64,000 nucleotides of DNA from G963667425 sp963667425 [NCBI: bacterium] (GTDB taxonomy: Bacteria; UBP6; UBA1177), in the NCBI GenBank assembly GCA_963667425.1, contig OY763407.1:930001-994000 (forward strand), read 5' to 3'. The position numbers and the translations under genes were made by a program. This document shows positions 12,695-63,284 of the stretch, in pieces; the first letter of the stretch is position 1; every line of letters begins with the position of its first letter. Below the pieces are notes generated by a model, which had not been told where the DNA came from, made no database searches, and was given only the letters and a program-made list of their open reading frames with translations.

Positions 12695-12722
12695 TGGCTT
12701 TACCCTTCGTAGATAATATAAT
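12694..12722 (+). promoter_or_regulatory. Candidate promoter for the M24 peptidase gene
   Basis: TTGGCT (12694-12699), a 17-bp spacer and a perfect TATAAT (12717-12722), about 33 bp upstream of the chosen start codon at 12755 and directly after the terminator. Confidence 0.45.
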
Positions 12723-12754
12723 CAAAAAGATTTTAACTTCAAATGGAGCAGACA

Positions 12755-13192
12755 ATGAAGCTTTTCACAAAAAAAGAACTTTTAAAAAGGTCTGAAATGT
12801 TTTCAAATCAGCTTTCAGATCACAATATAGATGCAGCAATGCTGACACTAAACAGTGATCTTTTCTACTTTACCGGTTCCGTGCAGAAAGGTGTTTTATT
12901 AATTAAAAAAGACGGCAACGCAATCTGGTTTGTAAGAAAAAACTTTGAAAGAGCCCTATCAGAATCTGAAATCGATATTAAACCTTTTGATTATGATGCA
13001 ATAAAAGCTGAAATAAAAGATTTCAACCGGATAGGCATCCCCTTTGATACAATGACAATCAATGAACTTAAATGGTTTGAATCAAAACTTATGACAAAAA
13101 AAGAGATAGTTGATGTATCACTTCCTCTTGCTCTCTCAAAAACAGTAAAAACCGAAACTGAAATAGAATTCATGAAGAAAGCAGGAAAATGA
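12755..13192 (+). CDS. N-terminal creatinase-type domain of a split M24 (Xaa-Pro-like) peptidase
   Basis: 145 residues from the ATG at 12755, chosen because GGAG lies 6 bp upstream; an earlier ATG at 12743 overlaps that site. The region is the non-catalytic N-terminal domain of prolidase-like enzymes: ALTLNSDLFYFTGSVQKG-like strand (LTLNSDLFYFTGSVQKGVLL) and VKTETEIEFMKKAGK, the linker helix that leads into the M24 domain. The frame stops at TGA in AAAATGAATG and the catalytic domain continues in the next frame from an overlapping ATG. Either a one-base frameshift has split the gene or the halves are made by coupled translation. Confidence 0.75.
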   Translation: MKLFTKKELLKRSEMFSNQLSDHNIDAAMLTLNSDLFYFTGSVQKGVLLIKKDGNAIWFVRKNFERALSESEIDIKPFDYDAIKAEIKDFNRIGIPFDTMTINELKWFESKLMTKKEIVDVSLPLALSKTVKTETEIEFMKKAGK

Positions 13193-13926
13193 ATGCTGCA
13201 ATTCCTGAAGTTGTAAATAGGATATACAAAAAAGGGATGAAAGATATTGAGCTTCAGAGCAAGTTCGATTACATAATGAGAACAGAATACGGGCATGCAG
13301 GTTTTGTCTGGACACGCGGAACAAATATGGATGCCGGAATATCACTGGTTGTAACAGGCAAATCAGCACTTGAACCGACATATACCGATTTTCCTATCGG
13401 AGGAAAAGGGCTCTCACCCTATTTTGCTCAGGGAGTTTCAGGTGAAACAATAGAAAACACTCTTGTTGTTGATTTTATAGGCACATATCATGGATATAAT
13501 GCCGATTCAACAAGAACATTTTTTATAGGAAAACCATCAGAAGAACATGCGGCAATATATAACGATCTTATTGAACTTCTTGAAAAACTTACAGCCTATA
13601 TGACAACTGAAGTAACAGCCGAAGAAAGCTGGAATTACTTAAAAACACTTCTTAACAACTACTCATGGAAAGATAATTTCATGGGGCTTAAACAGAAAGT
13701 AGGTTTTATAGGACATGGAATAGGAAATGAAGTAAATCAGCTTCCGGTAATTGCACCGAGACAGAGAACAACTATCAGGGAAAACATGGTAATAGCTCTT
13801 GAACCTAAAGTATTTATTGAAAATTATGGAATAATAGGACTTGAAAACACATATCATGTTACAAAAGACGGATGGATATCGATAACAGGTGAATTTCCTC
13901 CTCTGGAAGAAATAATACTTAACTGA
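13189..13926 (+). CDS. Catalytic domain of a split M24 metallopeptidase
   Basis: 245 residues with the pita-bread peptidase fold. Candidate metal ligands: the first Asp in TLVVDFIGTYHGYNADSTRT (about 93-112), His in VGFIGHGIGNEVNQLP, and Glu in MVIALEPKVFIENYGIIGLE. The start ATG overlaps the stop of the preceding half by ATGA, and MNAAIPEVVNRIYK is the natural continuation of EFMKKAGK. Inserting one A in the run of four would restore a single ~390-residue enzyme. The ligands appear intact, so the product may still work. The transporter downstream suggests a role in peptide use. Confidence 0.8.
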   Translation: MNAAIPEVVNRIYKKGMKDIELQSKFDYIMRTEYGHAGFVWTRGTNMDAGISLVVTGKSALEPTYTDFPIGGKGLSPYFAQGVSGETIENTLVVDFIGTYHGYNADSTRTFFIGKPSEEHAAIYNDLIELLEKLTAYMTTEVTAEESWNYLKTLLNNYSWKDNFMGLKQKVGFIGHGIGNEVNQLPVIAPRQRTTIRENMVIALEPKVFIENYGIIGLENTYHVTKDGWISITGEFPPLEEIILN

Positions 13927-14054
13927 AACAGTACATTCAAACTAAAATAGACTCTAATAAAAATCTAATAAAAACAAATCTTTTCTTGCTTTTACCCATT
14001 TTTACCGATACGTTTAAGTGCGGTTTTTCTTTTTTTTATATCATAGGAGGACAA

Positions 14055-15614
14055 ATGCCCGACTTTATTGCAAAAGCAAGCAACCTGGATCTTATCATTT
14101 ACGGATTTATACCAATTTTAGCCGGAGCTTTTATCTTTATTATTCATTCGTATATTAAAGGACTTAAGGATTCTCCCAGAGAAATATGGATTTTATTCAG
14201 CTCAAAGCTTATAGAGTATGCTGCATATGGCGCCATGAACATGACCTTTGTACTGTTTCTCTCAAAAGATATAAATCCGCCTCTAAGTGATATGAGTGCT
14301 GGAAGTTTTATTGCCGCATGGTCAATAATAATTACCATGACAACAATGCTTGTTGGATCAATATGCGATGCAATAGGGATAAAAAAGACACTACTCATAG
14401 GAACAGCAACTCTTCTTTTCGGAAGATTCTTTATGCCTCACACAGACAACATAATTGTAGCATCACTTCTTGGATTTGTACCGATGGCATTTGGAACGGC
14501 TATCATGGGACCTGTACTTTCAGTCGGAATTAAAAAATTCACAACAAAAGAAGGAACAACTCTTGGGTTTGGACTTTTTTATACAATGATGAACGTTGGC
14601 TGGGCAACAGGAGCATGGATATTTGACGAAGCAAGAAGTAGTTTTGGAGAATATGCCGGAACAACAGTCCCTATATTTGGTCATCTTTCAACCTATCAGC
14701 TTATATTTCTAATAGGATTTCTTCTGACAATACCGACATTTATACTCGTTCTCCTGATGAGAGATGGCGTTGCCATGACAGAAAAAGGCGTTGTTGTGAC
14801 AAAAGCTGAAAAAACAGGCAAAAAAGCAATAGAAACAGTTAAAACAGCAGTGCATGATACTTTTACAATACTTTCTCAGGTTGTAAAAGAGAAAGCATTC
14901 TGGCGTTTTATCTTCATGCTTGGAGTTCTTGTATTTGTAAGACTTACATTTTACCATTTTCACTATACATTTCCGAAATACGGCATCAGAGTTCTCGGTC
15001 AGGGGGTAAAAATAGGACACATTTACGGAGTTTTAAACCCGACTATAATTATATTCCTCGTTCCATTCGTAGCAGCGCTCACCAAAAAGGTTAAATCTTA
15101 TAAAATGATGGTAATAGGAACATTCTTAAGTGCTTTTTCAGTTTTCATAGCCACATTCCCAAGTGAAATGTGGAGTGGACTGATAGACAGCTGGGTCGGA
15201 GAGCTTGTATACATTAAATTTCTTGGAATAACAGGAGAAAGAATCCCTGAAATTATGGGACTCGTTGTATTTGTAATACTCTTCACAATAGGAGAAGCCT
15301 TCTGGAGTCCTAGACTTATGCAGTTCACAGCTGAAATAGCCCCTAAAGGGAAAGAAGGTACATACATTGCACTTTCATACCTTCCCTATTTTGGAGCAAA
15401 ATTTATAGTCGGACCACTTTCAGGCTGGCTCGTTCACAGATATACACCGACTGATATGGCAGGAAATCCGCTTCCATCATACCCTGAACACTACATGGTA
15501 TGGATATGGATAGGAGGAATGGCAATAATAACACCTCTTGGACTTGTAATATTCAGAAAACTTTTCAAGAAAAGCGAACAGGAGCAGGAAGCTCTAAACG
15601 CAGAAACCAAATAA
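14055..15614 (+). CDS. Major facilitator superfamily transporter, POT/peptide-transporter-like
   Basis: 519 residues from the ATG at 14055, which has AGGAGGACAA upstream; an upstream extension from 13986 lacks a ribosome binding site. About 12-14 membrane segments are visible, with MFS loop motif A-like sequence GSICDAIGIKKTLLIGTATL (about 99-118). The late segment GEAFWSPRLMQFTAEIAPKG and YLPYFGAKFIVGPLSGWLVH resembles proton-dependent oligopeptide transporters. Its position after an M24 peptidase fits uptake of peptides followed by cleavage, which is inference. It is convergent with malQ, with only 2 bp between the stop codons. Confidence 0.8.
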   Translation: MPDFIAKASNLDLIIYGFIPILAGAFIFIIHSYIKGLKDSPREIWILFSSKLIEYAAYGAMNMTFVLFLSKDINPPLSDMSAGSFIAAWSIIITMTTMLVGSICDAIGIKKTLLIGTATLLFGRFFMPHTDNIIVASLLGFVPMAFGTAIMGPVLSVGIKKFTTKEGTTLGFGLFYTMMNVGWATGAWIFDEARSSFGEYAGTTVPIFGHLSTYQLIFLIGFLLTIPTFILVLLMRDGVAMTEKGVVVTKAEKTGKKAIETVKTAVHDTFTILSQVVKEKAFWRFIFMLGVLVFVRLTFYHFHYTFPKYGIRVLGQGVKIGHIYGVLNPTIIIFLVPFVAALTKKVKSYKMMVIGTFLSAFSVFIATFPSEMWSGLIDSWVGELVYIKFLGITGERIPEIMGLVVFVILFTIGEAFWSPRLMQFTAEIAPKGKEGTYIALSYLPYFGAKFIVGPLSGWLVHRYTPTDMAGNPLPSYPEHYMVWIWIGGMAIITPLGLVIFRKLFKKSEQEQEALNAETK

Positions 15615-15616
15615 AC

Positions 15617-17119
15617 TTAAATTTTACACCTGTTTGAAGCAATCGTAAGACCTCTGAGTCTATCCTTGTGCCACTGATTAAGCTCTCTCTCCTCATATCT
15701 CCATGTCCAGTTTATGTCACCCACAGCACCGGGGACATTAAATCTTGCCTCGGAACCAAGCGCAAGAATATCCTGAACAGTAAAAATAGCCATATTGGCA
15801 ATAGAAAAAAGAGCAGCCCTCATCATTGACCAGCCAACCTCATCACCATAATGCATATTGAGGTAGAAATTGACAAAATCCCGCTCCTTATCACCAATCT
15901 TTTCATACCATCCGATAGTGGTATCGTTATCATGCGTACCACTATAAACGACATAAGATGAAGCATCATAATTATGAGGAAGGAAATAGTGATCCGACCC
16001 CTCAGCAAAAGCAAACTGAAGAACCTTCATACCATAAAAACCGAACTGTTTTCTAAGCTCAGTAACATCTTCGGTTATCTGACCAAGGTCTTCAGCAACA
16101 ATAGTAATATCGCCAAGATGCTTTTTAACCTCAGTAAAAAGCTTTTCACCAGGAGTCTTAACCCACTTTCCATTTCGTGCTGTAGTCTCACCGGAAGGAA
16201 CAGCCCAGCATGCGGAAAAACCTCTGAAATGATCGATTCTTATAATATCATATAAAGTCATATTAATTTTAAAACGGTCAATCCACCACTTGAAACCATC
16301 CTTTTCCATCTGCTTCCAGTTATAGAGAGGATTACCCCAAAGCTGACCGTCCTTTGCAAAATAATCAGGCGGAACACCGGCACTTTCAAGAAGCTGACCA
16401 TCCTTCATCATAAACTGTTCCTGATTAGCCCAGACATCAGCACTGTTATAAGCAACAAAAATAGGAATATCCCCCATAATGGAAACACCCCTTTTATTTG
16501 CATACTCTCTAAGCTCCTTCCACTGTGAATAGAAAAGCCACTGATAAAAACGGAACCTGTTAACCTCTTTTAAATGCTCCTTCTCAAACTTATCAAGAGC
16601 TTTCTTATCATGTTTTTTAAGCTCTTTAGGCCATTCTGTCCACATTACATAATTAAAATTAATATTTAACGCCATAAAAAGAGCGTAATCATCAAGCCAC
16701 CATCTGTTATCATTCACAAACCTGTCAAAATCCTTACTGTTTCCAGCTTTTCCTTCAATAAAATTTTCATAAACCTCTTCAAGAACACCATATTTGTAAG
16801 CCATAACAGCATCATAATTAATTTTATGAGGATTAGACTGCATAGGCTCAATTTCTCTCTTTATAAAACCAGCCTTCATAAGCTTATCAATACTTATAAG
16901 AAGCGGATTACCTGCAAAAGCAGACTGGGAATTATAAGGACAACCATCACCGCCAGTCGGAGTAAGCGGAAGCATCTGCCATACGCTCTGTTTAGAATCA
17001 GCAAGAAAATCAACGAAATTATAAGCATCCCATCCGATATCACCAACGCCCCACTTCCCAGGCAGGGAAACAGGATGAAGAAGCACACCGGAAACTCTTT
17101 TTTCTATTTTATTAACCAT
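15617..17119 (-). CDS. malQ: 4-alpha-glucanotransferase (amylomaltase)
   Basis: 500 residues from the ATG at 17119, preceded by GGAG with a 9-bp gap; the longer frame to 17203 has no such site. A GH77 enzyme that transfers glucan chains in maltodextrin or glycogen metabolism. The start reads GVLLHPVSLPGKWGVGDIGW, with WQMLPLTPTGGDGCPYNSQS (about 49-68). The GH77 catalytic features are IIRIDHFRGF (nucleophile Asp), IVAEDLGQI (acid/base Glu) and YSGTHDNDT (third Asp). Length is typical. It is transcribed away from the 21-bp array, toward the transporter. Confidence 0.95.
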   Translation of the reverse strand: MVNKIEKRVSGVLLHPVSLPGKWGVGDIGWDAYNFVDFLADSKQSVWQMLPLTPTGGDGCPYNSQSAFAGNPLLISIDKLMKAGFIKREIEPMQSNPHKINYDAVMAYKYGVLEEVYENFIEGKAGNSKDFDRFVNDNRWWLDDYALFMALNINFNYVMWTEWPKELKKHDKKALDKFEKEHLKEVNRFRFYQWLFYSQWKELREYANKRGVSIMGDIPIFVAYNSADVWANQEQFMMKDGQLLESAGVPPDYFAKDGQLWGNPLYNWKQMEKDGFKWWIDRFKINMTLYDIIRIDHFRGFSACWAVPSGETTARNGKWVKTPGEKLFTEVKKHLGDITIVAEDLGQITEDVTELRKQFGFYGMKVLQFAFAEGSDHYFLPHNYDASSYVVYSGTHDNDTTIGWYEKIGDKERDFVNFYLNMHYGDEVGWSMMRAALFSIANMAIFTVQDILALGSEARFNVPGAVGDINWTWRYEERELNQWHKDRLRGLTIASNRCKI

Positions 17120-17783
17120 AAGTAATATCTCCATGATAAAAACCGGGTTATAATGCCAGAAAAGAATTTTTTTGTCAAAATTATGGAAAAGAAGTAAAGC
17201 CAAACAGCTAAAATCTGAATGTAATTTTCACTAAGACCTTAAGAAAATACTTAACACGCTAACTTTAGAGCATAACGGTCTTAAAAAGACGCCAAAGGTT
17301 TTAAAAAAAATGCTTAACGGTCAAAGAAAAATGTCTTCCGGTTTAAAAAAAATGCCTTCCTGTCACCAAAAAAGCATTATCCGGTCAATGAAAAACGACT
17401 CACCGTCAAGGAAAAATGACTTACAGTTTAAAAAATAGAGACCACGACTTAAAAAAAATCAAAGCCGGTCATCGGGTTCGTTCATTTCGGTCAAAGATTT
17501 GAGCTATCCGGTCAAAGATTTGAGCTATCCGGTCAAAGGTTTGAGCTATCCGGTCAAAGATTTGAGCTGTACTGTTTCGTTTTTGTGCTGTCCGGTCAAT
17601 GAATTCTGCTCGAAGTATACCGGAATGGTTCTTCCAAGAATAAAATGTCTGGATTAACTACAAAATTATATGATGTTCCTGTTTAAGGCACTCGAACTTC
17701 TTTTTCCAATATTTTTTTAGTAAAAAATGATTCTGTGACTATAATCGGAAAAGTTTTGATTTTTATTTCTTTAAGAGGTCTTG
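17120..17783. other. Long non-coding region between divergent malQ and glycosyltransferase genes
   Basis: 664 bp with no convincing gene. The middle is filled by the 21-bp array (17277-17614). Short open frames inside it (for example a minus-strand frame with TAQIFDRIAQTFDRIAQ) have no start codon or ribosome binding site and simply reflect the repeats. The flanks hold the upstream regions of both genes. Confidence 0.8.
17277..17614. repeat. Array of sixteen degenerate 21-bp direct repeats
   Basis: Units start at 17277, 17297, 17319, 17340, 17361, 17383, 17404, 17425, 17446, 17467, 17489, 17510, 17531, 17552, 17573 and 17594, so steps are 20-22 and nearly all 21 bp. Each unit begins with GGTC or a variant (GTT, GTC) and most end in TCC or similar. 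The left units carry an A-tract (GGTCAAAGAAAAATG...); the units at 17489-17552 are almost identical (GGTCAAAGATTTGAGC...). Two helical turns per unit put the A-tracts on one face, which predicts bent DNA. Unequal divergence argues for an old array with a recently duplicated core. Confidence 0.9.
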
Positions 17784-18935
17784 TTGAAGATTTTATATGT
17801 AAACGATCAGGTTTTTCCGTGTCCTGATACTGATGCGGAACAGATAAGTCAGACTGTTTATTCTCTTGCTTCAAATGGAGAGGATGTAACTATGCTTCTG
17901 CCTAAAGAATTTGGAAAGCCAAAGGTATCTGCCCTAGAAATCAGCAGTTATTATGCTATTGGCGAGAATTTCAAGGTTGATGCTGTGGGTTCTGTTTTTC
18001 CTTCTTTCAGGTTTCTGGAAAAATTCTTTCATGCTGTTGTGTCAGCTTTTTCTTCAGGAAAGAAAGATTTTGATGTTGTCTATACAAGGAATATACCGAC
18101 TATTCTTGCGTTTCTGATTTTTACAAAGCTGCCTGTTTTTTATGAAACTTACAGACCATGGCCCAGACAGCTTTTCTTTATGCCTTCTCTTTTCAGGTTT
18201 ATCGGCAGAAAAAAAAGATTCCTCGGTGCTGTTTTTCATTCGGAATATGCAAGAAGAAGTTATATTGATGCTGGTCTTGATGAATCAAAGCTTCTGACTG
18301 CTCATAATGCTTATGATCCTGAGAGAATCAAACCTGTTCTTTCTGCTGATACGGCTAGGGAGATGCTTAATCTTCCAAAGGATAAAAAGATTGCAACTTA
18401 CACTGGAAATGTGAGTATAAAAAAAGGAATTGGTCTTTTGCTTGATATGGCTGATGCTATGAAGGATGTTTACTTTGTCATTGTTGGTTCAAAGGAAAAG
18501 AGTGAGGTTGAATCAAGAGCCGAAAGTATGGATAATGTAAGAATTGTTCCGTGGCAGAAATTTAAGGAGACTGTTCCTTATCTTTATGCTTCGGATATTT
18601 TAATTATTCCTCCGACGGCTGGTCCTTTAAATAATGTTGGCAATACCGTTCTTCCTATTAAAACTTTTCTTTATATGGCTACTGAAAGAGCTATTTTCGG
18701 ACCTTCAACACCTGATCTTGCCGAGGTTCTTGAAAATGGCAGGAACAGTGTTCTTGTTGAACCTGATAATATTGATGCTATTGTTGAAGGATTTCAGAAA
18801 CTTGTTTCTGATGATGATTTGAGAGTAAATGTTGCTAGGGCTGCCAGAGAGGAATCAAAACACCTTACATATCAGGCCCGCTCTCTTAAAATTGCAAATT
18901 TCATAAAAGAGAAAATTAAACAGCATCAGTTTTAA
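17784..18935 (+). CDS. GT4-type glycosyltransferase
   Basis: About 383 residues. Starts with LKILYVNDQVFPCPDTDAEQ, a Rossmann strand followed by a Gly-poor loop, typical of GT4 (GT-B) enzymes. The C-terminal half has KKIATYTGNVSIKKGIGLLL, then FVIVGSKEKSEVE and the nucleotide-sugar site region IIPPTAGPLNNVGNTVLPIK with KTFLYMATERAIFGP. Acceptor unknown; probably envelope polysaccharide or glycolipid. The start is TTG; of two adjacent TTGs the second (17784) is better spaced from AAGAGGTC. Codons end mostly in T, unlike the A-ending codons of the plus-strand genes left of the array. Confidence 0.85.
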   Translation: MKILYVNDQVFPCPDTDAEQISQTVYSLASNGEDVTMLLPKEFGKPKVSALEISSYYAIGENFKVDAVGSVFPSFRFLEKFFHAVVSAFSSGKKDFDVVYTRNIPTILAFLIFTKLPVFYETYRPWPRQLFFMPSLFRFIGRKKRFLGAVFHSEYARRSYIDAGLDESKLLTAHNAYDPERIKPVLSADTAREMLNLPKDKKIATYTGNVSIKKGIGLLLDMADAMKDVYFVIVGSKEKSEVESRAESMDNVRIVPWQKFKETVPYLYASDILIIPPTAGPLNNVGNTVLPIKTFLYMATERAIFGPSTPDLAEVLENGRNSVLVEPDNIDAIVEGFQKLVSDDDLRVNVARAAREESKHLTYQARSLKIANFIKEKIKQHQF

Positions 18936-18994
18936 AAATTTGACATCTCGGCGTCTCTATCTAAACTGGATATGTTCACTTTTTTGGAGTTGGT

Positions 18995-19582
18995 ATGAAA
19001 AAAACGGTTATTCTCACACTATTTTTTATTTTATGTTTTTCTCTTACTGCTAAGGCGGAAACTGAATCGTGGTATACTCAGTGGGGCGGCGGTCTTGGTC
19101 AGCTTTTCATTCAGGATGGTGCTCTTTCAAGTTATATGGAAGATAACTATGACCAGAATGTGAGTCTTGGTTTTGATTTACTCGGTTTTTACTGGCCTAT
19201 TTCAGATTCAATTCTGCTTGGAACTGCAACTACGGGTTCGTTTAACTTTTTTAAATCCGAGAATGATGCCCTTAAAGATATGGTTTTCATTCAATATCAG
19301 GTTTCCGTGAGTGGCGAATGGTATCTTACGGGCGATGGTATCGGTGATGGTCTATTTTTCAGGACGGATCTTGGAATAACGCAGGCTATTTCAACGGAAG
19401 GTGAATTTACTGACGGAACTGAGGTTGGTGTAGGAATTAATCTTGGTGTCGGTTACGCTATTAAGATGTCTGAAGGTGAAAGTATTCTTATTTCTCTTCT
19501 TTTCAATCATGCTTATATGAACGATGATTTTCTTGATGTAAAAACTAATAATCTTCACATAACTTTTGCCGGTCTTTTCTAA
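18995..19582 (+). CDS. Small outer-membrane beta-barrel-like protein
   Basis: 195 residues with signal peptide MKKTVILTLFFILCFSLTAKA. The mature part alternates hydrophobic and polar residues (GFDLLGFYWPISDSILLGTA, GVGINLGVGYAIKMSEGESI) and ends in a C-terminal strand finishing with Phe (LHITFAGLF), the usual outer-membrane barrel signal. Probably an 8-stranded barrel. Ribosome binding site TTGGAG. No family recognised; it may be a structural or adhesion protein. Confidence 0.7.
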   Translation: MKKTVILTLFFILCFSLTAKAETESWYTQWGGGLGQLFIQDGALSSYMEDNYDQNVSLGFDLLGFYWPISDSILLGTATTGSFNFFKSENDALKDMVFIQYQVSVSGEWYLTGDGIGDGLFFRTDLGITQAISTEGEFTDGTEVGVGINLGVGYAIKMSEGESILISLLFNHAYMNDDFLDVKTNNLHITFAGLF

Positions 19583-19654
19583 ATTTTAATCTATAAACTT
19601 GCATTAACGCTTTAATTAAAGTAAAACTCGCGGAAAAGCTCTTCGGAGGAAAAC

Positions 19655-20656
19655 ATGAAAAACATTGCTATACTTCATACCGGCGGTACTTTCGTTATGG
19701 AAAAGAACGAGCATGGTCAGCTGACTCCGGGAAAGTATGCTCTTAACTATATTGAAGAAAATGTTTATCCCCGTTTCCCTGAGATTTCTTTCAGACAAAT
19801 ATCTCTTTTCAATATTGATTCTTCTCTCTTAAGACCTGAGCACTGGCAGAGAATTGCGATTAAAATAGCAGAAATTTATGACAATTATGATGGTTTTGTT
19901 ATTATCCATGGCACAGATACTATGGCTTATACCGCCTGCGCACTGAGTTTTATGCTTACTAATCTTGAAAAGCCTGTTGTAATTACCGGTTCTCAGCTTC
20001 CTCTTGAAACTCTCAGAACTGATGCCTACCCTAACCTTACAGATGCAATTGTTGTGGCTTCGGATTCATCTCTGCGGGAAGTTGTTGTCGCATTCAACCA
20101 TACCGCTTATCGCGGTAACAGGGTAAAGAAAAAAAATGTCTGGGATTTTGATGCATTTTATACCCCTAACTACGAACCTCTTATTCATCTTGGCATAAGT
20201 ATGGATGAGAAACTGAATCTTTTTCTTCCCAAACCTGAAACTCAATTTAAACCTGACTTTTCATGTGATTCCAAAGTTGCTCTTATACCGTTTTTCCCTG
20301 GTCTTGATTTCTCAACTTTTCATCACATGGTAAAGCATAAGATAATTCATGGTATTGTGGTTGAAGCTTACGGCAGTGGTAATATACCTTCAGATAATCC
20401 TGGTCTGGAAAAACTTTTTGAATTTGCTTCGATGAATGAGATTCCTATTGCCGTTTGCAGTCAGTCACCTTTTGGCAGAGTTAACTTAAGTCTTTATGAG
20501 GCTGCTTCAAAGGCTGAATTTTACGGGCTGATTTCAGCTCAGGATATGACAAGAGAAGCGACTCTTGTAAAAATGATGGTAGCTCTTGGTCGTTTTAATA
20601 ATATGGACAAAATAAAGGAATATATGAAAACAAATATAGCCGGAGAAAAGGAATAA
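19655..20656 (+). CDS. ansA: Type I (cytosolic) L-asparaginase
   Basis: 333 residues. Hydrolyses asparagine to aspartate and ammonia. Both signatures are present: ILHTGGTFVMEKNEHG (first catalytic Thr, about 5-20) and GFVIIHGTDTMAYTACALSF with the HGTDT motif (about 82-101). No signal peptide, and the sequence SQLPLETLRTDAYPNL fits the type I subgroup. Ribosome binding site CGGAGGAAAAC. Its stop codon overlaps the era start by one base, so the two are co-transcribed. Confidence 0.93.
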   Translation: MKNIAILHTGGTFVMEKNEHGQLTPGKYALNYIEENVYPRFPEISFRQISLFNIDSSLLRPEHWQRIAIKIAEIYDNYDGFVIIHGTDTMAYTACALSFMLTNLEKPVVITGSQLPLETLRTDAYPNLTDAIVVASDSSLREVVVAFNHTAYRGNRVKKKNVWDFDAFYTPNYEPLIHLGISMDEKLNLFLPKPETQFKPDFSCDSKVALIPFFPGLDFSTFHHMVKHKIIHGIVVEAYGSGNIPSDNPGLEKLFEFASMNEIPIAVCSQSPFGRVNLSLYEAASKAEFYGLISAQDMTREATLVKMMVALGRFNNMDKIKEYMKTNIAGEKE

Positions 20657-52232: not shown

Positions 52233-52241
52233 GAGAAAAAA

Positions 52242-53889: not shown

Positions 53890-54104
53890 ATAAAAGTGGC
53901 TAATAATATTATTATTTATAATATCATACAGGCAAAAAAATAAATAAATATCTTTACCAGACACATTAAACATTTTTAAAAAAGCATTACATACAATTAT
54001 TTATAAAACAAATACTATAAAAAATACAAAAAAATTTACAAAAACACTCAATATGATATTTTATTAACAAGTTATTTCCTTTTAAACCTAATATGGAGGG
54101 CAGC

Positions 54105-55315: not shown

Positions 55316-55645
55316 TTAATAATCCTTATCTTCTTCGTCTAAATCAGAGATGTCTTCGTCAAAATCATTATCTGCTTCATCTGAATCAACAATGTCTTCG
55401 TCATTTACTATGTCGTTATCAATAAAATCTTCATCTGATGTTTCTTTTTAATCCAAAATTCCATTTGAATTGATATCAAGTCCTGTTTCAACCTTTACAC
55501 CATCGTTTGCGCAGTTTTCACCAGGATCTTCTGCAGTGATTAAAGTAAGTGAATTTTTTCCACTTTTCCCATCGTCACTACACGAAACGAAAAAGATTAA
55601 AATAAAAGTAATAACTGTTAGGATAGCCAGGATCTTCATCTTCAT
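55316..55645 (-). pseudogene. Chimeric acidic lipoprotein cut by an in-frame stop
   Basis: The first 65 codons (55645-55451) give a lipoprotein signal (MKMKILAILTVITFILIFFV, Cys 22 in SCSDD) and a DUF7151-like head ending GLDINSNGILD, then TAA at 55448-55450. The same frame stays open for 43 more codons (KETSDEDFIDNDIVNDEDIV ... DEEDKDY) to a TAA at 55316. The neighbour at 55774-57450 has ILDEKETSDSD at the matching place, so the stop replaces GAA by TAA. It looks like a head from one lipoprotein family joined to an acidic tail of another at the shared ILDE, then inactivated or shortened. No clear ribosome binding site. Confidence 0.7.
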
Positions 55646-55773
55646 TCTGTAGTTTTATATTTAATAAATACTATTTGATAAGAATTGTAGTTAACAGATA
55701 TTAGAATGCAAAAAATTTAGTTTTAAATTTCTTAAATACAGATTCTTTTTAGATCAATTATCTTTACCAGATA

Positions 55774-57450
55774 TTAAAGATTTGTTCTGTGAAAAGCGTA
55801 AACTTTATTGTTTGCATAGTTGTATGAAAATTTACTGGCAGGAACTTCTTTTTCTTCAAGCACTATATTATTAAAAAGTACAACGCATGATCTATGTATA
55901 TTAAAAAAACTTCCTGTAGCTGAATCAAAAATCATAGAGGCTGAATTTATAACAGAAGATGCTGAATCATCGCAGTAAACAACATTATTTTCTATAACTC
56001 TATCTATAAAAGCTCCATTAAGCTCTCCATCAATATCTTCTACATTAAGCTCTATGGATTCAGGATCTGTTCCACAACAGAAATCACCTGTATCGTCAAG
56101 ATAAAAATCACCATTATCATCTGACGTGCCTATAATTTCTTTTTCTATACCTTCAACTCTATATTTGCATGTGATTTTTATATCTTTAAGAGGATGTCCT
56201 TCACTGTTCTCAACTCTTCCCTGTGTATGGAGAGTATAATGAGTATAAGGTGAACATTCTTCACATAAAATATCTTCATCTGTATCTATCACATCGCTAT
56301 CTGAAAGATCTTCGTCAGATGATGCTTGTTCATCCATAATTATGGAAACATTATTACTACAGTATAACATACCCGAAGCAATCCCGGAAGCGGAATCAAA
56401 AGAAACAGCTGAATCATAGCAGGAAGTTCCAATATTTTCTATAACTCTATCTATAAAAGAGCCGTTAAGCTCACCATCAAGATCTTCTATCATAACTTTA
56501 ACAATTTCAGGATCTGTTCCATAGCAGTAGTCTTCCTCTTCTGAAAGATAAAAGCTGCCATCATCATAAGACTGAACTGAAATTTCTTTTTCTACACCTT
56601 TGACTTTATAGATGCAGGTAACTTTTATATCTTTAAGAGGATTTCCTTCATTATCCTTTACGGTTCCATTTAAATAAAAAGAATAGGGAAGTTCCTGACA
56701 CGGCAAATCTTCATCCAGAATTATATCTTCGTCACTGACAGTATCAGCATCATAGAGATCTTCATCATATTGAACATCTTCATCATATTGAACATCTTCA
56801 TCATATTGAACATCTTCGTCATCAATAATGTTATCATCGTCAATATCACTATCTGATGTTTCTTTTTCGTCTAAAATTACAGAAATTACTCCTTCACATA
56901 CTCTTGTTTTCTCCCAGCCGCTTTCAGGATTGTCGTAGCAGTTTAATTCCATGTCTGTAATTTCTTTATATTCAAATGAACCGTTAAGTTCGCCGTCAAT
57001 ATCTTCTGCAATTATTTTGTTGTTTTCCAGTTTTTCATCATAAAAACAGAGTGGAATAGTATCTGATAACTCAAAATTACCATTTTCATCTGATAAGGAT
57101 GTTGTCTCAAGTTCTTCCTCATATTCAAATTTATATTTATATGTCAGTTTTATTCCTTTAATTGGATTATTATTGTTATCTTTTACAGTACCTGTTACAT
57201 TAACTGAATATTCTGAATACTGACAGCCATATTCTGTGGCCATATCTTCATCCGGATATTGATATGGTTCATCAATGTCTACATCTTCGTCAATGTTACT
57301 GTAATCTGTATCAGGACAGCCATATAAAATATCATATTCCGGCTCTTCATAAGCATCTTCATCATTTTTTTTATTACTTCCGTCATCACATGCTGTAAAT
57401 CCCACAAGAAAACTGAAGAAAACTAGTAAAAGTGTGTAGATTTTTTTCAT
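55774..57450 (-). CDS. Acidic lipoprotein with three carboxypeptidase-regulatory-like modules
   Basis: 558 residues. Signal IYTLLLVFFSFLVGFTAC with lipobox Cys at about 21. Acidic linkers (for example DVQYDEDVQYDEDVQYDED) separate three homologous modules of ~110 residues, each with a Tyr-rich entry, TVKDN..NP.K.IK, a beta-sandwich and DIDGELNGSF followed by a Cys. The layout YGCPD.DY ... GTVKD..GNP..I ... D.DGE.NG.F recalls, from memory, lipoproteins of the rSAM/lipoprotein system (TIGR04134). No radical-SAM partner of that type is in the window. Shares its signal sequence almost exactly with the next gene, so the two are recent paralogues. Confidence 0.75.
   Translation of the reverse strand: MKKIYTLLLVFFSFLVGFTACDDGSNKKNDEDAYEEPEYDILYGCPDTDYSNIDEDVDIDEPYQYPDEDMATEYGCQYSEYSVNVTGTVKDNNNNPIKGIKLTYKYKFEYEEELETTSLSDENGNFELSDTIPLCFYDEKLENNKIIAEDIDGELNGSFEYKEITDMELNCYDNPESGWEKTRVCEGVISVILDEKETSDSDIDDDNIIDDEDVQYDEDVQYDEDVQYDEDLYDADTVSDEDIILDEDLPCQELPYSFYLNGTVKDNEGNPLKDIKVTCIYKVKGVEKEISVQSYDDGSFYLSEEEDYCYGTDPEIVKVMIEDLDGELNGSFIDRVIENIGTSCYDSAVSFDSASGIASGMLYCSNNVSIIMDEQASSDEDLSDSDVIDTDEDILCEECSPYTHYTLHTQGRVENSEGHPLKDIKITCKYRVEGIEKEIIGTSDDNGDFYLDDTGDFCCGTDPESIELNVEDIDGELNGAFIDRVIENNVVYCDDSASSVINSASMIFDSATGSFFNIHRSCVVLFNNIVLEEKEVPASKFSYNYANNKVYAFHRTNL
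56758..56820. repeat. 18-bp tandem repeat inside the acidic lipoprotein gene
   Basis: Three perfect copies of an 18-bp unit (ATCTTCATCATATTGAAC) plus a partial fourth, encoding the minus-strand peptide repeat DEDVQY. The unit length is a multiple of three, so copy number can change without a frameshift. Confidence 0.95.
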
Positions 57451-57466
57451 TTATATTTTCTCCTGC

Positions 57467-58180
57467 TTAATTTTCATCAGAAAATTCTTCATCGTTGTTG
57501 TCTGTATCGTTTTCGTTATCTTCATCTGTAATTTCGCTGTCATCAATTGTATCTTCGTCTATAAATGCGGCATCTTCATCATCAATAGCGTCTTCATCAG
57601 CAGTTTCTTTTGATTCAAGCACCAGATTCACTTCACCTGTACATAATAAAACATTATCATAGTCATATTCATCTAAAGGTTTTGATGAACTGCAGGATAA
57701 GTCTATATCATTTATTTCTTTTGTTTCAAATGAACCATTAAGTTCGCCGTCAATATCTTCTGCAATAATTTTGTTGCTTTCCAGTCCATAATCAAAACAG
57801 AGAAAACTACTGTCTGATAACTCAAAACTACCATTTTCATCTGATAAGGATGTTGTCTCAACTTCTCCCTCATATTCCAATTTATATTTATATGTCAGCT
57901 TGATTCCTTTAATTGGATTATTATTGTTATCTTTTACAGTACCTGTAACATTAACTGAATATTCTGAATATTGGCAACCATAGAGCGTTGTGTCAGAATC
58001 TTCTTCTTCATCCGGATATGGATATGGTTCATCAATGTCTACATCTTCGTCAATGTTGCTATAATCAGCATCAGGACAGCCATATAAAGGACGGTCATCA
58101 TTATTGCTTGTGTCATCACATGCTGTAAATCCCACAAGAAAACTGAAGAAAACTAGTAAAAGAGTATAAATTTTTTTCAT
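57467..58180 (-). CDS. Acidic lipoprotein, single-module paralogue
   Basis: 237 residues from the ATG at 58180 (GGAGAAACAA upstream). The signal MKKIYTLLLVFFSFLVGFTA with Cys next is identical to that of the downstream gene over 21 residues. One module follows: YGCQYSEYSVNVTGTVKDNN, NPIKGIKLTYKYKLEYEGEV, TTSLSDENGSFELSDSSFLC, AEDIDGELNGSFETKEIND. The C-terminus is a purely acidic run (DEDAIDDEDAAFIDEDTIDD). Probably surface-exposed. Tandem paralogues like this may exchange sequence by recombination. Confidence 0.75.
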   Translation of the reverse strand: MKKIYTLLLVFFSFLVGFTACDDTSNNDDRPLYGCPDADYSNIDEDVDIDEPYPYPDEEEDSDTTLYGCQYSEYSVNVTGTVKDNNNNPIKGIKLTYKYKLEYEGEVETTSLSDENGSFELSDSSFLCFDYGLESNKIIAEDIDGELNGSFETKEINDIDLSCSSSKPLDEYDYDNVLLCTGEVNLVLESKETADEDAIDDEDAAFIDEDTIDDSEITDEDNENDTDNNDEEFSDEN

Positions 58181-58213
58181 TTGTTTCTCCTGCAATTTGC
58201 TCAACTCACATTT

Positions 58214-58241
58214 AGTTTAAATTTTTATGATGATTTTGCAA
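58214..58241 (-). promoter_or_regulatory. Weak candidate promoter for the acidic lipoprotein pair
   Basis: On the minus strand TTGCAA (58236-58241), a 16-bp spacer and TAAACT (58214-58219), about 34 bp before the ATG at 58180. Neither hexamer is perfect. Confidence 0.3.
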
Positions 58242-58275
58242 GAAAACGGGATGTTAATTTAAATATAAAGCTGTG

Positions 58276-59571
58276 TTATATTTTCTCAGCCGCTTCGATT
58301 CCTTCTATTACGGCGTTTTCCATTGCGGAGTATGTCCAGTTTCCGTATCTGCCGATGAGCTGAACGGAATTTTCTGCAAATATTTCTTTTACTTCTTTTA
58401 TGTCGTCAAAATATTCCTTGTGGTAGATTACGTAGCCGTTTTCTATTTTTCTGTAGTCCATGAATTCTATTTCACTTTCATTTTCGATTAATTTCATATC
58501 CTGGAGGAGTTTTATGCTTTCCTGTTTGAATTTTTCTATGTCATCAAATTTTCCCTGATGTGTGTATTCAATGTATAGTGATGATTTTCCTTCCGGTGAA
58601 AGCTTTGAATAGATGTTGCTGAAGCTTCCAAGTCTGTACGGCATATATTTTTCTTCAGGGATGTAGTACCAGTGTCCTTTGTGCGGCAGTTTTTTATTTA
58701 TGGCTACGTTGAGGTAACTGACTGATGCTATTTTCATTCTGTCTGAGATTTTTTTCAGTTTTTCCTGACATGGTGCTTTTATTATTTTAAGAAAATCTTT
58801 TAGCGGCACTGATGAGATGATGTTTTCATATTTTACGGTTTCTCCGTCTGATAATTTCATCTCTTTTTTTGTTATGTCGATTTCTATTGGATGAACGTTG
58901 AAAAGATATTTTGTTTTGTCTGTTATTTCAAAGAATTTTTTCGGGAATTCGCCTATTCCACCTTCTTTCGGATATTTAAATGTTGCGTTGTATCCTATAT
59001 TTTTCTGTTCGGGTGCTGTTATTGCTCCGTCTATGACTTGTTCGAGTGTCGGTTTCGGTACGTAGTAATCGCACCAGTGTGATGCGTATTCTTTTGGGTG
59101 TACGGTATATATTTTTGTGTTGTAGGGTATCATAAAGTGTTTTGAGATTCCTTCGCCTAAATATGCCATGCACCATTCATAGAAGTTTTCTTTTGCTTTT
59201 GATTTGTCGTTTTCGTACTGCGCTTTTACAAATCCGATGATGCACTCTTTTATTACCTGCGGCGGTAATCCGTATGTGTTTGACTGAAATGGGTACTGTG
59301 TAAAAACTTTGTGCGAAAAAACGTATGTGTCTCTGACTATTTCCACAAAATTTTCGCCGAAGAGTTTTTTAAATATCGCTTTTGTTCTGTCGTCTCTCAT
59401 GTGAAGCCAGTGTCCTGTCTGGTCAAATGTGTATCCGTTTTTATGTTCGGATGTGCATAAGCCTCCGGGCAAGCCTGTTTTTTCTATTACAAGAAAATTT
59501 TCTTTAAGCGTATATGCTGCTGCGATTCCTGAGAGTCCTGCGCCGAGTACGACTGTTTTTATGTTTATCAT
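58276..59571 (-). CDS. FAD-dependent amine-oxidase/protoporphyrinogen-oxidase-like protein
   Basis: 431 residues. FAD site TVVLGAGLSGIAAAYTLKEN (about 6-25) followed by FLVIEKTGLPGGLCTSEHKN and FDQTGHWLHMRD. The C-terminal FAD segment is SVQLIGRYGNWTYSAMENAV. The overall layout is that of amine-oxidase/UDP-galactopyranose-mutase-like flavoproteins often found with glycosyltransferases; substrate unknown. Start ATG lies a few bases after the lipA stop, so it is downstream of thiI-lipA in the same unit. Confidence 0.85.
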   Translation of the reverse strand: MINIKTVVLGAGLSGIAAAYTLKENFLVIEKTGLPGGLCTSEHKNGYTFDQTGHWLHMRDDRTKAIFKKLFGENFVEIVRDTYVFSHKVFTQYPFQSNTYGLPPQVIKECIIGFVKAQYENDKSKAKENFYEWCMAYLGEGISKHFMIPYNTKIYTVHPKEYASHWCDYYVPKPTLEQVIDGAITAPEQKNIGYNATFKYPKEGGIGEFPKKFFEITDKTKYLFNVHPIEIDITKKEMKLSDGETVKYENIISSVPLKDFLKIIKAPCQEKLKKISDRMKIASVSYLNVAINKKLPHKGHWYYIPEEKYMPYRLGSFSNIYSKLSPEGKSSLYIEYTHQGKFDDIEKFKQESIKLLQDMKLIENESEIEFMDYRKIENGYVIYHKEYFDDIKEVKEIFAENSVQLIGRYGNWTYSAMENAVIEGIEAAEKI

Positions 59572-59576
59572 ATTTA

Positions 59577-60443
59577 TTATTTCTCCGACGTTTTACTGAT
59601 TGTTTCGTAGAGTTCCATTGCATTGAATGAGCTTCTGACAAATCTTCCTGCGTAGACATCTTTTATGCCGGTTTTGAGTGCATAGTTTTTTATTTCCTCA
59701 AATTCTTCTTCGGTATATTCCTTTACAAGTTCGGCATGTTGTTTTGATGGCTTAAAATACTGCCCTACTGTCAGAATATCGCAGTTTTGAGCCGCTATGT
59801 CGTCTATTACTTTTTTTATTTCATCAGATGTTTCGCCGAGTCCTGTCATTATTCCCGATTTTGTTGTGAGTCCTTTCGATTTCATATATTTAAGCATGTT
59901 AAGCGACTGCGCATAGTCTGCCTGAGGTCTTACGGCTGAATATAATCTTTCAACTGTTTCAACGTTGTGATTGAAAACATCGGGTGCAGCTTCAACAATT
60001 ATGTCAAATGCTTTTTCGTTTCCTCTAAAGTCTGGTGTAAGGATTTCTATCAGCGGCGGGTTTTCAGATTTTCGAAGTTCTTTTACAACTTTTGCAAAAT
60101 GCTCTGCGCCTCCGTCCAAGAGATCGTCTCTTGTTACTGATGTTATTACAACATATCGGAGTCCAAGTTCGTGTACTGCTCCGGCAACATTTGCCGGTTC
60201 GTTTGAATCTAGAATAAATGGCTCTTTTGTCTCTTCTATGTTGCAGAATCTACAGTTTCTTGTGCATCTGTTTCCCATTATGAGAAATGTTGCTGTCTTT
60301 TTTTTAAAGCATTCCCCGATATTAGGGCAGTGTGCCGCTTCGCAGACTGATGAGAGGCAGTATTTTCTTAATATTTTTTTTACTGGCGCTACGAATGGTG
60401 ATTTTACTGTTGATTTTTTTTCAAAATTCGATTGTCTGGACAT
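59577..60443 (-). CDS. lipA: Lipoyl synthase
   Basis: 288 residues. Radical-SAM enzyme inserting two sulfurs into octanoyl groups. Auxiliary cluster motif CLSSVCEAAHCPNIGEC (C-x4-C-x5-C, about 29-45), radical-SAM motif CTRNCRFCNI (about 60-69), and the C-terminal RSSFNA (about 274-279) containing the Ser ligand. Sequences VITSVTRDDLLDGGAEHFAK and PDVFNHNVETVERLYSAVRP are typical. Starts within the last 23 bp of thiI. Confidence 0.96.
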   Translation of the reverse strand: MSRQSNFEKKSTVKSPFVAPVKKILRKYCLSSVCEAAHCPNIGECFKKKTATFLIMGNRCTRNCRFCNIEETKEPFILDSNEPANVAGAVHELGLRYVVITSVTRDDLLDGGAEHFAKVVKELRKSENPPLIEILTPDFRGNEKAFDIIVEAAPDVFNHNVETVERLYSAVRPQADYAQSLNMLKYMKSKGLTTKSGIMTGLGETSDEIKKVIDDIAAQNCDILTVGQYFKPSKQHAELVKEYTEEEFEEIKNYALKTGIKDVYAGRFVRSSFNAMELYETISKTSEK

Positions 60444-61602
60444 TTTCTATTGCCTTTTCTATTAGATCTTTTATTTCAGGGTTTAATCTTGCTTCTTCCT
60501 GCTCAACTATTTTTCTTTTTCCTTTTATTATTGGTGATTCGGGAAGAAATACTGTGCATGAGTCGGGACATGGTCTTATGCTTATTTCATATGTTCCTAT
60601 CTGTTGCGCAATATTTATTGATTCCTGTTTTTCATATGTTATGAGTGGTCTTATTACAGGAAGTCTTTTAACGGCATCGTTTATAAGGGTAAGGTTTTCT
60701 ATTGTCTGACTTGCGACCTGAGTTAATGCTTCTCCTGTAACTAGTGCCGAGTAGCCTTCTTTTTCTGCAATTTTTTCTGCAATTCTAAACATCATTCTGC
60801 GAAAGATTACTGTGCGGTAACTTTCAAAGCATCTGGCACGGATAAGAAGCTGTATGTCAATGAATGGAACGATGTAAAGTCTGTATCCTGCGCCCTGAAA
60901 ATCTTTCAGCTTACCTGCAAGGTCTTTTAATTTGGTTAAGCTTTCTTCTCCCATGTGCGGCGGCGAAAAAAAACTTAAAAAGCTTACTCTTGCTCCTCTT
61001 CTCATGCAGAGATAACTTGCAACCGGCGAATCTATTCCGCCTGACAACAGCGAAAGAAAGTGCCCGGCACAGTCTACCGGCATTCCTTTTACTCCGAGAA
61101 CTCTGTCTTTAAAAAGAAAGATTTCATTTCTGTCTATTTCTATTTCAAGATGAAAATTAAAGTCTCTCATTGAAACTGTAAGATTTTCACCGACTATTTT
61201 CAGTACACATGCTGCGAGTTTCTGCTGTATTTCAGGTGATTTCATCGGATATGTTTTATTTGCTCTGTTGCATGAGACTCTGAAGACTGTTTTTCCTTCT
61301 TCTATCGATTTTTCTGCAAGTATTACAGATTTTTCGGCGAGTTCTTCCCATGAAACATCGAGCGGAAACGAAAATGCGGGGGAAAATGTCGATATTCCGG
61401 GAATTTTCCTCAGAGCATCCATTAATTCTTCTACAGGAGTTCCTTCTTTCGGTTTTACGACAAGTCTGCCTCTGAATCTTACAACATATCCTCTGCCGCT
61501 TATATTTTTACGAATATTTTTTTCGAGTAAATCTTCAAACCAGCCTCTGTTTTTCCCTTTTACTCCTATTTCGTCATATCTTATGAGTATTGAATCGAAC
61601 AC
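60421..61602 (-). CDS. thiI: tRNA 4-thiouridine synthase ThiI (no rhodanese domain)
   Basis: 393 residues. N-terminal ferredoxin-like/THUMP region (ILIRYDEIGVKGKNRGWFED, IVGENLTVSMRDFNFHLEIE), PP-loop SLLSGGIDSPVASYLCMRRG (about 185-204), and VTGEALTQVASQTIENLTLI. Lacks the C-terminal rhodanese extension of the E. coli form, as in most bacteria. Makes 4-thiouridine in tRNA and may supply sulfur for thiazole. GTG start with GGAG 13 bp upstream, directly after the permease stop. Confidence 0.95.
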   Translation of the reverse strand: MFDSILIRYDEIGVKGKNRGWFEDLLEKNIRKNISGRGYVVRFRGRLVVKPKEGTPVEELMDALRKIPGISTFSPAFSFPLDVSWEELAEKSVILAEKSIEEGKTVFRVSCNRANKTYPMKSPEIQQKLAACVLKIVGENLTVSMRDFNFHLEIEIDRNEIFLFKDRVLGVKGMPVDCAGHFLSLLSGGIDSPVASYLCMRRGARVSFLSFFSPPHMGEESLTKLKDLAGKLKDFQGAGYRLYIVPFIDIQLLIRARCFESYRTVIFRRMMFRIAEKIAEKEGYSALVTGEALTQVASQTIENLTLINDAVKRLPVIRPLITYEKQESINIAQQIGTYEISIRPCPDSCTVFLPESPIIKGKRKIVEQEEARLNPEIKDLIEKAIENVQTIEF

Positions 61603-62373
61603 TTAGTTAATCTCCTTTTTATTGAAAAATACCACAGCTAGAGCAAGAAGAATAACTATCCATGCAAGAGAATAAAATGTTGCCGATGTTAAAGAAATCT
61701 TATCAATACCTGTGCCGTAAACAAGATTATTTTTTATATTAAAATAATGAAAATCTGGAAGTATATATCTGACTGTGGTAACAAGCTTCACTACTGATTC
61801 AGATGTATTTTTTGTTATGAAATGAACAAGGTTGTAGCTTATTGTTCCAATGATATAAAAAGAAACCGATAACATCGCCGCAACTGCAGGCTCTGCAAGC
61901 GTTGAACAGAAAACCGCAACTGCTGTCACCATTGATGTCTGAATAAATATTGTGTATATTGCCGGAATAAATGTGAAAAAACGGCTGAATCCGCCATAAA
62001 ATGTAAGAAGAATCATAAATATTACTGACATTACAAGTGTAAGAATAAAAAGAGTTATTTCTATTCCGAAAAATTTACCAAGCATATATTCCGCTCTGCT
62101 TACTGGTCTTGCAAAAAGCGGATGAAGTGTTTTAAGCGTAAGCTCACGCCTTACAAGAGAAACTCCGATAAAAACTGATGTGACTGTCAGAAATATTTCT
62201 GTCGTTCCAAGCCCGATATCCGAGATTATATCCTGAGGATTTCCCATTGTCATCTGTGTTATTATTATTCCGAGCCCTATTATGAAGAATGAAAAGAAAA
62301 GAAGAATATAGAGGATTTTGTTTCTAACCATTTCAAGATATGTATAGCGGGCAACTGAAAATATATTTTTCAT
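61603..62373 (-). CDS. ABC-2 type exporter permease
   Basis: 256 residues, about six membrane helices (ILYILLFFSFFIIGLGIIIT, LTVTSVFIGVSLVRRELTLK, FGIEITLFILTLVMSVIFMI, AMLSVSFYIIGTISYNLVHF, SLAWIVILLALAVVFF). The loop LKTLHPLFARPVSRAEYMLG between helices 2 and 3 is typical of ABC-2 permeases. GGAGGTGAAAT precedes the ATG, which overlaps the ATPase stop (ATGA). Pairs with the upstream ATPase; cargo unknown. Confidence 0.88.
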   Translation of the reverse strand: MKNIFSVARYTYLEMVRNKILYILLFFSFFIIGLGIIITQMTMGNPQDIISDIGLGTTEIFLTVTSVFIGVSLVRRELTLKTLHPLFARPVSRAEYMLGKFFGIEITLFILTLVMSVIFMILLTFYGGFSRFFTFIPAIYTIFIQTSMVTAVAVFCSTLAEPAVAAMLSVSFYIIGTISYNLVHFITKNTSESVVKLVTTVRYILPDFHYFNIKNNLVYGTGIDKISLTSATFYSLAWIVILLALAVVFFNKKEIN

Positions 62374-63284
62374 ATTTCACCTCCGTAAACTATTTCTTCA
62401 AGTTTCGGTCTCACTGCGCCGGCATTTATTATTGTATATTTCTTTGCAATGAGTTCATACAGCGCTTTTGACATCTCTTCATCTGTAGCAAATGAGAGAA
62501 GATAAGTTTTACTAAGCTTTTCAGCTTTGGGAAAATCATTGAAAACCGCCCCTTCATTCTTTGCAGAAAAAACTATTTCATATTTTGAGATATTTCTTTC
62601 AAGAAGAGCTTCCAGTGAACCTGAATACTGTTTCTGACCTTTACTCAGGACTAAAACGTTGTCGGAAAGGTCTTCAACATCGGAAAGAATGTGTGATGAA
62701 AAAAGAACTGTTTTTCCATCTCTTCTAAGCGATGCAATAACATCCTTAACTTCCTTGCGACCGATAGGATCAAGCCCGCTCATAGGTTCATCCATTATTA
62801 CAAGATCAGGATCATGAATTATCGCCTGCGCAATTCCTATTCTCTGAAGCATTCCCTTTGAAAACGAGCTAAGTCTTCTCTTACCAAGATCTTCAAGCCC
62901 TACTCTTTTTAGGGTAAGCGGAATAAGCCTGTCAAGATCTGAACGACTTAAACCGGAAAGAGAACCAAAGTAGGATAAAAACTCCCTTGAATTAAGATGC
63001 GTGTAGAAATAAGGTCTTTCAGGAAGAAAACCTATTTTCTTTTTTGAAATTACATCGGACGGCTCTTTACCTAAGACAGAAATTTTTCCCTTAGTCGGGG
63101 TGATAAAACCCATAATCATTTTAATTGTAGTAGTTTTACCTGCGCCGTTGTGTCCGACAAAACCTGTGACTCTACCTTCAGGAAGTTCAAAGCTGAGATC
63201 GTTTACAGAAACGACCTTTTCCCAAACTTTCATTGGGTGGCTGTAAATTTTTACCACATTTTCTAAAACAACAGGATAATTCAT
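62370..63284 (-). CDS. ABC exporter ATP-binding protein
   Basis: 304 residues from the ATG at 63284 (GAGGTGATTTG upstream). Walker A GFVGHNGAGKTTTIKMIMGF (about 41-60), Q-loop region KIGFLPERPYFYTHLNSREF, signature RLSSFSKGMLQRIGIAQAII (about 136-155), Walker B LVIMDEPMSGLDPIGRKEVK and H-loop LFSSHILSDVEDL. Typical of ABC-2 drug, antibiotic or lipid exporters (CcmA/YadG group). First gene of the ATPase-permease-thiI-lipA-flavoprotein run. Confidence 0.94.
   Translation of the reverse strand: MNYPVVLENVVKIYSHPMKVWEKVVSVNDLSFELPEGRVTGFVGHNGAGKTTTIKMIMGFITPTKGKISVLGKEPSDVISKKKIGFLPERPYFYTHLNSREFLSYFGSLSGLSRSDLDRLIPLTLKRVGLEDLGKRRLSSFSKGMLQRIGIAQAIIHDPDLVIMDEPMSGLDPIGRKEVKDVIASLRRDGKTVLFSSHILSDVEDLSDNVLVLSKGQKQYSGSLEALLERNISKYEIVFSAKNEGAVFNDFPKAEKLSKTYLLSFATDEEMSKALYELIAKKYTIINAGAVRPKLEEIVYGGEI

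Follow-up and report, generated by a model that had tools for sequence, protein, structure and literature searches.

We analysed a 64,000-nucleotide stretch (the window) of the bacterium G963667425 sp963667425 (GenBank assembly GCA_963667425.1, contig OY763407.1, positions 930,001 to 994,000), a low-GC chromosome segment that carries housekeeping genes (era, mutL, purF, mazG, lipA, thiI and others) and two intergenic repeat arrays, at both of which the plus strand goes from A-rich to T-rich. Array 1 (17243-17610, plus strand) comprises about 17 degenerate units, each 21-22 bp long and anchored by hand, and gives the highest periodicity signal of the window (lag-21 autocorrelation, z 11.8). Its left part contains A-tracts and its right part holds 3.9 near-identical CGGTCAAAGATTTGAGCTATC units at 17488-17568; in composition, the left portion is A-rich and the right portion T-rich. 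Array 2 (54901-55310, ends approximate) is a 21-bp array more degenerate than array 1 and was assigned to the minus strand from the orientation of its GAC/GTC core relative to array 1, as GTC prevails on the plus strand in array 1 and GAC in array 2. Eight plus-strand sites in array 2 lie within two mismatches of GACGTACTT, and all seven of their spacings are multiples of 21 (±1 bp), a pattern that none of 1000 dinucleotide shuffles matched, with a motif that was picked after the array had been seen. When all GAC triplets of array 2 were taken together, the Rayleigh test was not significant. A kinship between the units of the two arrays is suggested, tentatively, by their sequences. An Rfam scan returned nothing at the gathering thresholds.

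The preliminary description of this stretch had noticed the switch in codon endings and in 60-bp samples of the plus strand, and all five of its A/T counts were reproduced exactly. The 7,667 fourfold-degenerate sites were used to compare A with T on the plus strand, in a model with a coding-direction term. To the left of array 1, the A/T counts were 133/21 in malQ (minus strand), 120/76 in the major facilitator superfamily (MFS) gene and 24/19 and 51/35 in the two pieces of an M24 gene (all plus strand), and to its right they were 31/103 in the glycosyltransferase gene and 23/83 in the asparaginase gene (both plus strand). The genes around array 2 are on the minus strand and gave 135/26 (purF) and 68/11 (TPM) on the left, and 14/81 (amine oxidase-like), 19/64 (lipA) and 35/68 (thiI) on the right. 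The sign of the bias is therefore set by the side of the array on which a gene lies, and coding direction, as had been argued from the codon endings, does not explain it, since genes of either direction share the sign of their side. With far genes as the background, the step was 1.28 ± 0.12 log-odds at array 1 and 2.14 ± 0.14 at array 2, a stronger switch than the samples could show. No single gene was responsible, as leaving out one gene at a time gave steps of 1.14-1.32 at array 1 (10 genes) and 1.92-2.49 at array 2 (13 genes). The GC skew, which had been proposed as a further check, changes in the same direction and is weak, with C/G steps of 0.37 ± 0.22 log-odds at array 1, which is not significant, and 0.82 ± 0.22 at array 2.

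The position of the switches was also recovered blindly, with one added step moved along the window and then with every possible pair of centres from a 500-bp grid. The top pair was 17,500 with either 55,000 or 56,500, depending on the decay length, and had a likelihood ratio of 302-346 over a coding-only model. The second centre is poorly resolved within 54.75-56.75 kb, since two lipoprotein genes immediately to the right of array 2 carry little bias. The maximum-likelihood switch points were 17469 (range 17459-17478), within array 1, and 54779 (range 54695-54791), about 120 bp to the left of array 2. Both were obtained with noncoding bases included, and the bases of array 1 contribute to the first; gene sites alone place this first switch between 17203 and 17781. 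The two lipoprotein genes were omitted from the change-point fit, from the fit of the decay shape and from the tables that compare the near and far spectra, and were kept in the gene counts, the pair scan, the gene permutation, the distance profile and the comparison with control genomes; the step sizes were computed both ways.

In box fits, the plus strand is A-rich at fourfold sites over 11719-17469 to the left of array 1 (5.75 kb) and T-rich over 17469-20469 to its right (3 kb, and more weakly farther out). At array 2, the A-rich domain covers 49029-54779 (5.75 kb), with the mazG, purF, HIT and TPM genes, and the T-rich domain covers 54779-61529 (6.75 kb, lipoprotein genes omitted), with its peak at 58276-61602. 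The reach per side is thus about 3-7 kb by the box fit and up to 11.5 kb by a linear fit. The likelihood ratios of the decay shapes were 472 (linear), 465 (Gaussian), 461 (box) and 445 (exponential), and this comparison is weaker on the right arm of array 2, where omitting the lipoprotein genes drops the inner 3.4 kb. The preliminary description had proposed a bias that fades over several kilobases and is already gone at 51 kb. The finite reach stands; the fading at 51 kb does not, since the 51.0-52.5 kb bin holds 142 A and 27 T and the left edge of the domain lies near 49 kb. At codon positions 1 and 2, no base frequency shifts by more than about 0.025, and the effect is almost confined to synonymous positions.

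Permuting the genes gave p values of 0.01 for array 1, 5e-5 for array 2 and 5e-5 for both jointly. In a comparison with other intergenic positions, proposed at the outset as a way to refute the link, the array gaps ranked first and third among 21 gaps of at least 60 bp, of which 20 could be scored, and the second (53,961) belongs to the same domain. When all 58 gene junctions were ranked, array 1 came fifth, after four junctions from the region of array 2. The control set was 800 kb from four genomes that all belong to one other order, taken as eight blocks of 100 kb, half of them around dnaA. Over its 2,677 centres, the largest absolute step was 0.67 and 99% of the steps were below 0.42, compared with 1.29 and 2.16 at the two arrays with the same gene caller. 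Because steps of +0.79 and −1.00 occur, at a looser site minimum, in a 336-kb contig of another genome, G243, which itself contains many arrays, array 1 exceeds all controls by less than array 2.

We then describe the spectrum on the outward strand, that is, the strand that runs 5′ to 3′ away from the array, as inferred from base composition at fourfold sites and not from counted substitutions. Over seven rows, each combining an arm with a gene direction, A stood at 0.32-0.92 of the background (0.92 for the 198 sites of inward genes right of array 1, 0.76 for 78 sites left of array 2 and 0.32-0.67 for the other five), while G was raised 1.04-1.98-fold and T 1.02-1.62-fold. C was unchanged when pooled (1.01 and 1.05), with single rows from 0.15 (78 sites) to 1.59. 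The effect of the arrays is hence mainly a loss of adenine, to G and T, on the outward strand, with a possible slight loss of C on the left arms. Cytosine deamination as the main cause was rejected: pooled C/(C+T) on the outward strand falls slightly (0.14 against 0.16 in outward genes, 0.16 against 0.21 in inward genes; 0.03 to 0.22 in single rows), while G/(A+G) doubles (0.42 against 0.21 and 0.32 against 0.16, respectively). This polarity is that of the lagging-strand template at a bidirectional origin, and is the opposite of what damage to the exposed strand at a resected break would leave.

The surroundings of array 2 include a gene for a 235-residue protein without a Pfam match (54093-54800, plus strand), which sits between the A-rich flank and the array, and, adjoining the array on the other side, the two paralogous Asp-rich lipoprotein genes mentioned above (55774-58204, minus strand; 142 of 204 residues identical). 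The fourfold AT skew of the pair is only +0.05 and −0.12, and their near absence of bias could be explained if they were recent arrivals and the bias accrued slowly. Just to the right of the array, at 55320-55650, lies what looks by eye like a remnant of minus-strand Asp-rich lipoprotein coding sequence, which suggests that lipoprotein genes turn over beside array 2. An 18-bp tandem repeat at 56758-56822, within the lipoprotein gene 55774-57450, encodes an Asp-rich hexapeptide. To the left of array 1, an M24-type dipeptidase is encoded in two overlapping frames (12743-13192 and 13189-13926); because both pieces match NF040821, a frameshift seems either to have broken the gene or to be used in reading it. 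Between the arrays, a 1052-residue surface-type protein (35877-39035) ends in a Cys-rich, hydrophobic and basic tail, which we take to resemble a sorting signal of the MYXO-CTERM type. Among the 59 window proteins scanned (49 with Pfam, 10 with NCBIfam), none was a transposase or a reverse transcriptase. The GGTCA units are presumably like the ends of IS21-like transposons; the transposase genes expected beside such an end did not turn up among these proteins. No plasmid match was found for the 48-63 kb region, and queries with lipA and the response regulator had no match in viral contigs. A purF scan of genome contigs for relatives yielded two loci, from Flavobacteriales and Aquimarina (23% and 31% identity), neither of them close.

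To place the arrays among known repeats, we collected viral-contig arrays with three copies of a hexamer at 20-22 bp spacing and scanned the overlying open reading frames (ORFs) against PHROGs, dropping duplicates of an array as well as any array over which no ORF reached 100 amino acids. Three hexamers of equal base composition were compared: CGGTCA (at least 120 loci, 107 arrays, 86 ORFs), GTCACG (at least 120, 72 and 64) and CCTGAG (at least 119, 97 and 73). Among the matches listed, the commonest family was O-like replication initiation for CGGTCA (at least 14 of the 86 ORFs), replication initiation for GTCACG (at least 18 of 64) and tail fibre for CCTGAG (at least 5 of 73), for which no replication-initiation family with two or more members was listed among the 73 ORFs. 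These figures are less biased than those for the first ten CGGTCA proteins, picked by eye from 18 of at least 120 loci, all ten of which belonged to replication-initiation families. CGGTCA as a specific iteron motif was rejected, as the shuffled GTCACG performs equally; it is the GTCA core with 21-bp spacing that tracks initiator genes in viral contigs. Arrays of this kind are thus frequently iterons of the phage type. Array 1 has the look of one, which is a matter of resemblance and not of membership. The 9-mer of array 2 occurs in seven viral-contig stretches, whose contexts look like coding repeats or chance matches. Three contigs of genome G296 (L413, L414 and L415) share a short dispersed element in which about four 21-bp CGGTCA units alternate and whose flanks are similar, and variants of it were seen in two viral contigs (L018 and L083).

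Similar arrays were sought in 296 genomes (the phylum of genome G001). The pattern matched in 11 of them, many of the matches being 7-bp repeats. One of the 11, G243, carries 17 arrays with a period of 20-22 bp on a single contig, 11 of them intergenic and 6 coding. In this 336-kb contig, eleven mostly noncoding, degenerate arrays of 21-22 bp were noted (L416 and L419-L435), several with units of GCCCGCCGCC plus a T-tract. Like the arrays studied here, the intergenic ones of G243 are degenerate with A/T-tract units, and one has CGGTCA units and a homogenised middle; the candidate reading that they are the DR22 repeats of Porphyromonas gingivalis was not confirmed. They differ in that their AT step is weak and their short-range C/G step opposite. 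When the listed AT steps of the contig are ranked by size, four of the top eight (ranks 1, 2, 6 and 8) fall no farther than 1.5 kb from an array, and the 6 coding arrays show no AT step.

Like iteron origins, the arrays are built of tandem direct repeats, spaced by about 21-22 bp, and show a switch in strand composition with origin polarity. Plasmids and lambdoid phages have such origins, and lambda O binds four iterons (PMC10797057); in the viral contigs above, GTCA-core 21-bp arrays lie in O-like genes. The arrays here differ in being intergenic, with up to about 17 degenerate units, among housekeeping genes, with a reach of a few kilobases and no initiator in the window. That an origin of phage descent can become fixed in a chromosome has a precedent in the run-off replication (ROR) of Bartonella, where a fixed non-oriC origin copies its surroundings (PMC3610622); ROR amplifies several hundred kilobases and lies within a phage remnant with exonuclease and helicase genes, none of which was found among the 59 window proteins scanned. 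At a bacterial oriC, the leading strand is generally rich in T and G and the skew switches at the origin. There, it spans whole replichores, whereas here two switches lie about 37 kb apart and each fades within a few kilobases.

The reading that we favour, with a confidence that stays short of even, is that short-range bidirectional DNA synthesis begins at the iteron-like arrays. Each array would be a landing site from which synthesis proceeds outward both ways for only about 3-7 kb, making the outward 5′ to 3′ strand the lagging-strand template for both forks; this strand, single-stranded or less accurately copied, would lose adenines to G and T over many generations. The process would be replication, the array units would be bound by a protein and the forks would arrest after a few kilobases. 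The polarity is identical at the two arrays despite their opposed GTC and GAC cores, as a symmetric bidirectional process would give, and it is independent of gene direction, which is why we place this reading before outward transcription and outward transcription before the refilling of breaks. Transcription of the annotated genes would not produce a bias that ignores coding direction. Divergent transcription starting at the arrays and running outward, with R-loops and antisense to some genes, could however expose the outward non-template strand for several kilobases to transcription-associated mutation, for which an identical sign is expected. This is unlikely, although it ranks first among the alternatives: the A/T polarity is the same as that of the genome's coding-strand bias (T 0.50, A 0.31 at far fourfold sites), and a few kilobases is a natural transcript length. 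Against it, the step is strong in the inward genes (lipA, thiI and the amine oxidase-like gene), where antisense transcription would need to outweigh sense transcription, and G is below C on far coding strands (0.085 and 0.099), yet the arrays raise G relative to C, a comparison that codon selection may confound. Promoter-like sites show no clear excess (2 against 2.4 expected, and 15 against 11.4 ± 3.5 expected).

Recurrent double-strand breaks at the arrays, resected over several kilobases and then filled in outward by an error-prone polymerase misreading T in the template, would also be symmetric and finite in reach, and the new outward strand would lose A. Misincorporation of G or T opposite T would leave A-to-G and A-to-T changes on the strand newly made outward. 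This account seems to us less probable still. Meiotic break hotspots likewise combine a flip of the mutation spectrum at a protein-bound site with a reach of a few kilobases; they are eukaryotic, with a reach of about 2 kb, and at human breaks C>N and A>N changes are summarised for the strand that resection exposes, to the left of the break the forward one (PMC7615360). Here, the adenine polarity is opposite, since the forward strand keeps its A to the left of the arrays and loses it to the right. A resected hotspot with damage to the exposed strand, which would lose A on the left forward and right reverse strands, therefore does not fit, and only the refilling variant survives. That chance, base composition or rearrangement is at work, with gene-level variation in codon usage, old inversions or a chimeric assembly happening to meet at the arrays, is improbable. 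There are only two arrays, array 1 alone has a permutation p of 0.01, and a contig from another genome holds a step as large as −1.00; however, both steps lie above all control centres, the blind scan found the pair, the joint permutation was significant, and an inversion or a chimera would not produce domains that fall back to background at either end. Selection acting on a short, oriented motif that points away from the arrays, like segregation or recombination signals, would tilt synonymous sites too, and polar motifs are known near origins. We give this explanation hardly any weight: on the outward strand, no 5-7-mer present at least 12 times is much more prominent than its sub-words predict (largest z difference 4.3), and a bias of 135 A to 26 T across one whole gene is too general for a motif.

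Several observations weigh against short-range bidirectional synthesis from the arrays. The sample that links arrays to switches consists of two arrays in one 64-kb window, and the surroundings of array 1, at 0.37 GC, are higher than the usual level of the window. When a profile of array 1 was run over the window, array 2 came out as the best other chain with 8 and 10 units and not with 6 or 12, and 18, 20 and 68 of 200 column-permuted profiles did equally well at 8, 10 and 12 units. No replication initiator was found among the 59 window proteins scanned, at the repeats or beside them, though one may be encoded elsewhere in the genome, and the arrays are intergenic, unlike those phage arrays that sit inside initiator genes. 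DnaA boxes show no enrichment, with 17 sites found at up to one mismatch where 19.3 were expected, and array 1 is 0.9 kb and array 2 about 4 kb away from the nearest of these sites, which does not fit a DnaA-dependent oriC. In G243, the mean AT step at the 11 intergenic arrays was +0.06, +0.14 and +0.14 (p 0.32, 0.054 and 0.049) within 2, 4 and 6.5 kb, and the C/G step was −0.31 within 2 kb (p 0.002), which is the wrong sign, fading to −0.11 and −0.05 (p 0.07 and 0.17) at 4 and 6.5 kb; similar arrays without a strong step count against a general law for all such arrays. We also know of no bacterial origin whose forks regularly stop within about 6 kb. Of the earlier proposal that an origin-like mutational asymmetry radiates from the arrays, the sign change at or beside them, the finite reach and the origin polarity hold, whereas the missing initiator, the lack of DnaA-box enrichment and the weak step in G243 speak against it. 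"Origin-like" hence describes the pattern, and an origin itself is what we infer from it.

Bacterial chromosomes are described as starting replication from a single origin (reviewed in PMC7174701). It is possible, though we regard it as doubtful, that some of them carry dispersed iteron-like arrays besides oriC, at which short bidirectional synthesis (about 6 kb) imprints A-specific domains on housekeeping genes, as an undescribed system of site-directed strand-biased mutagenesis or re-replication. In the literature searched, judged by titles and the opening lines of abstracts, nothing turned up on bacterial repeat arrays at which the skew switches locally. If an array does imprint 3-7 kb of ordinary genes, this would mean either additional initiation sites whose reach is short or mutagenesis directed to particular sites, and assembled genomes could be screened for such sites by the skew itself.

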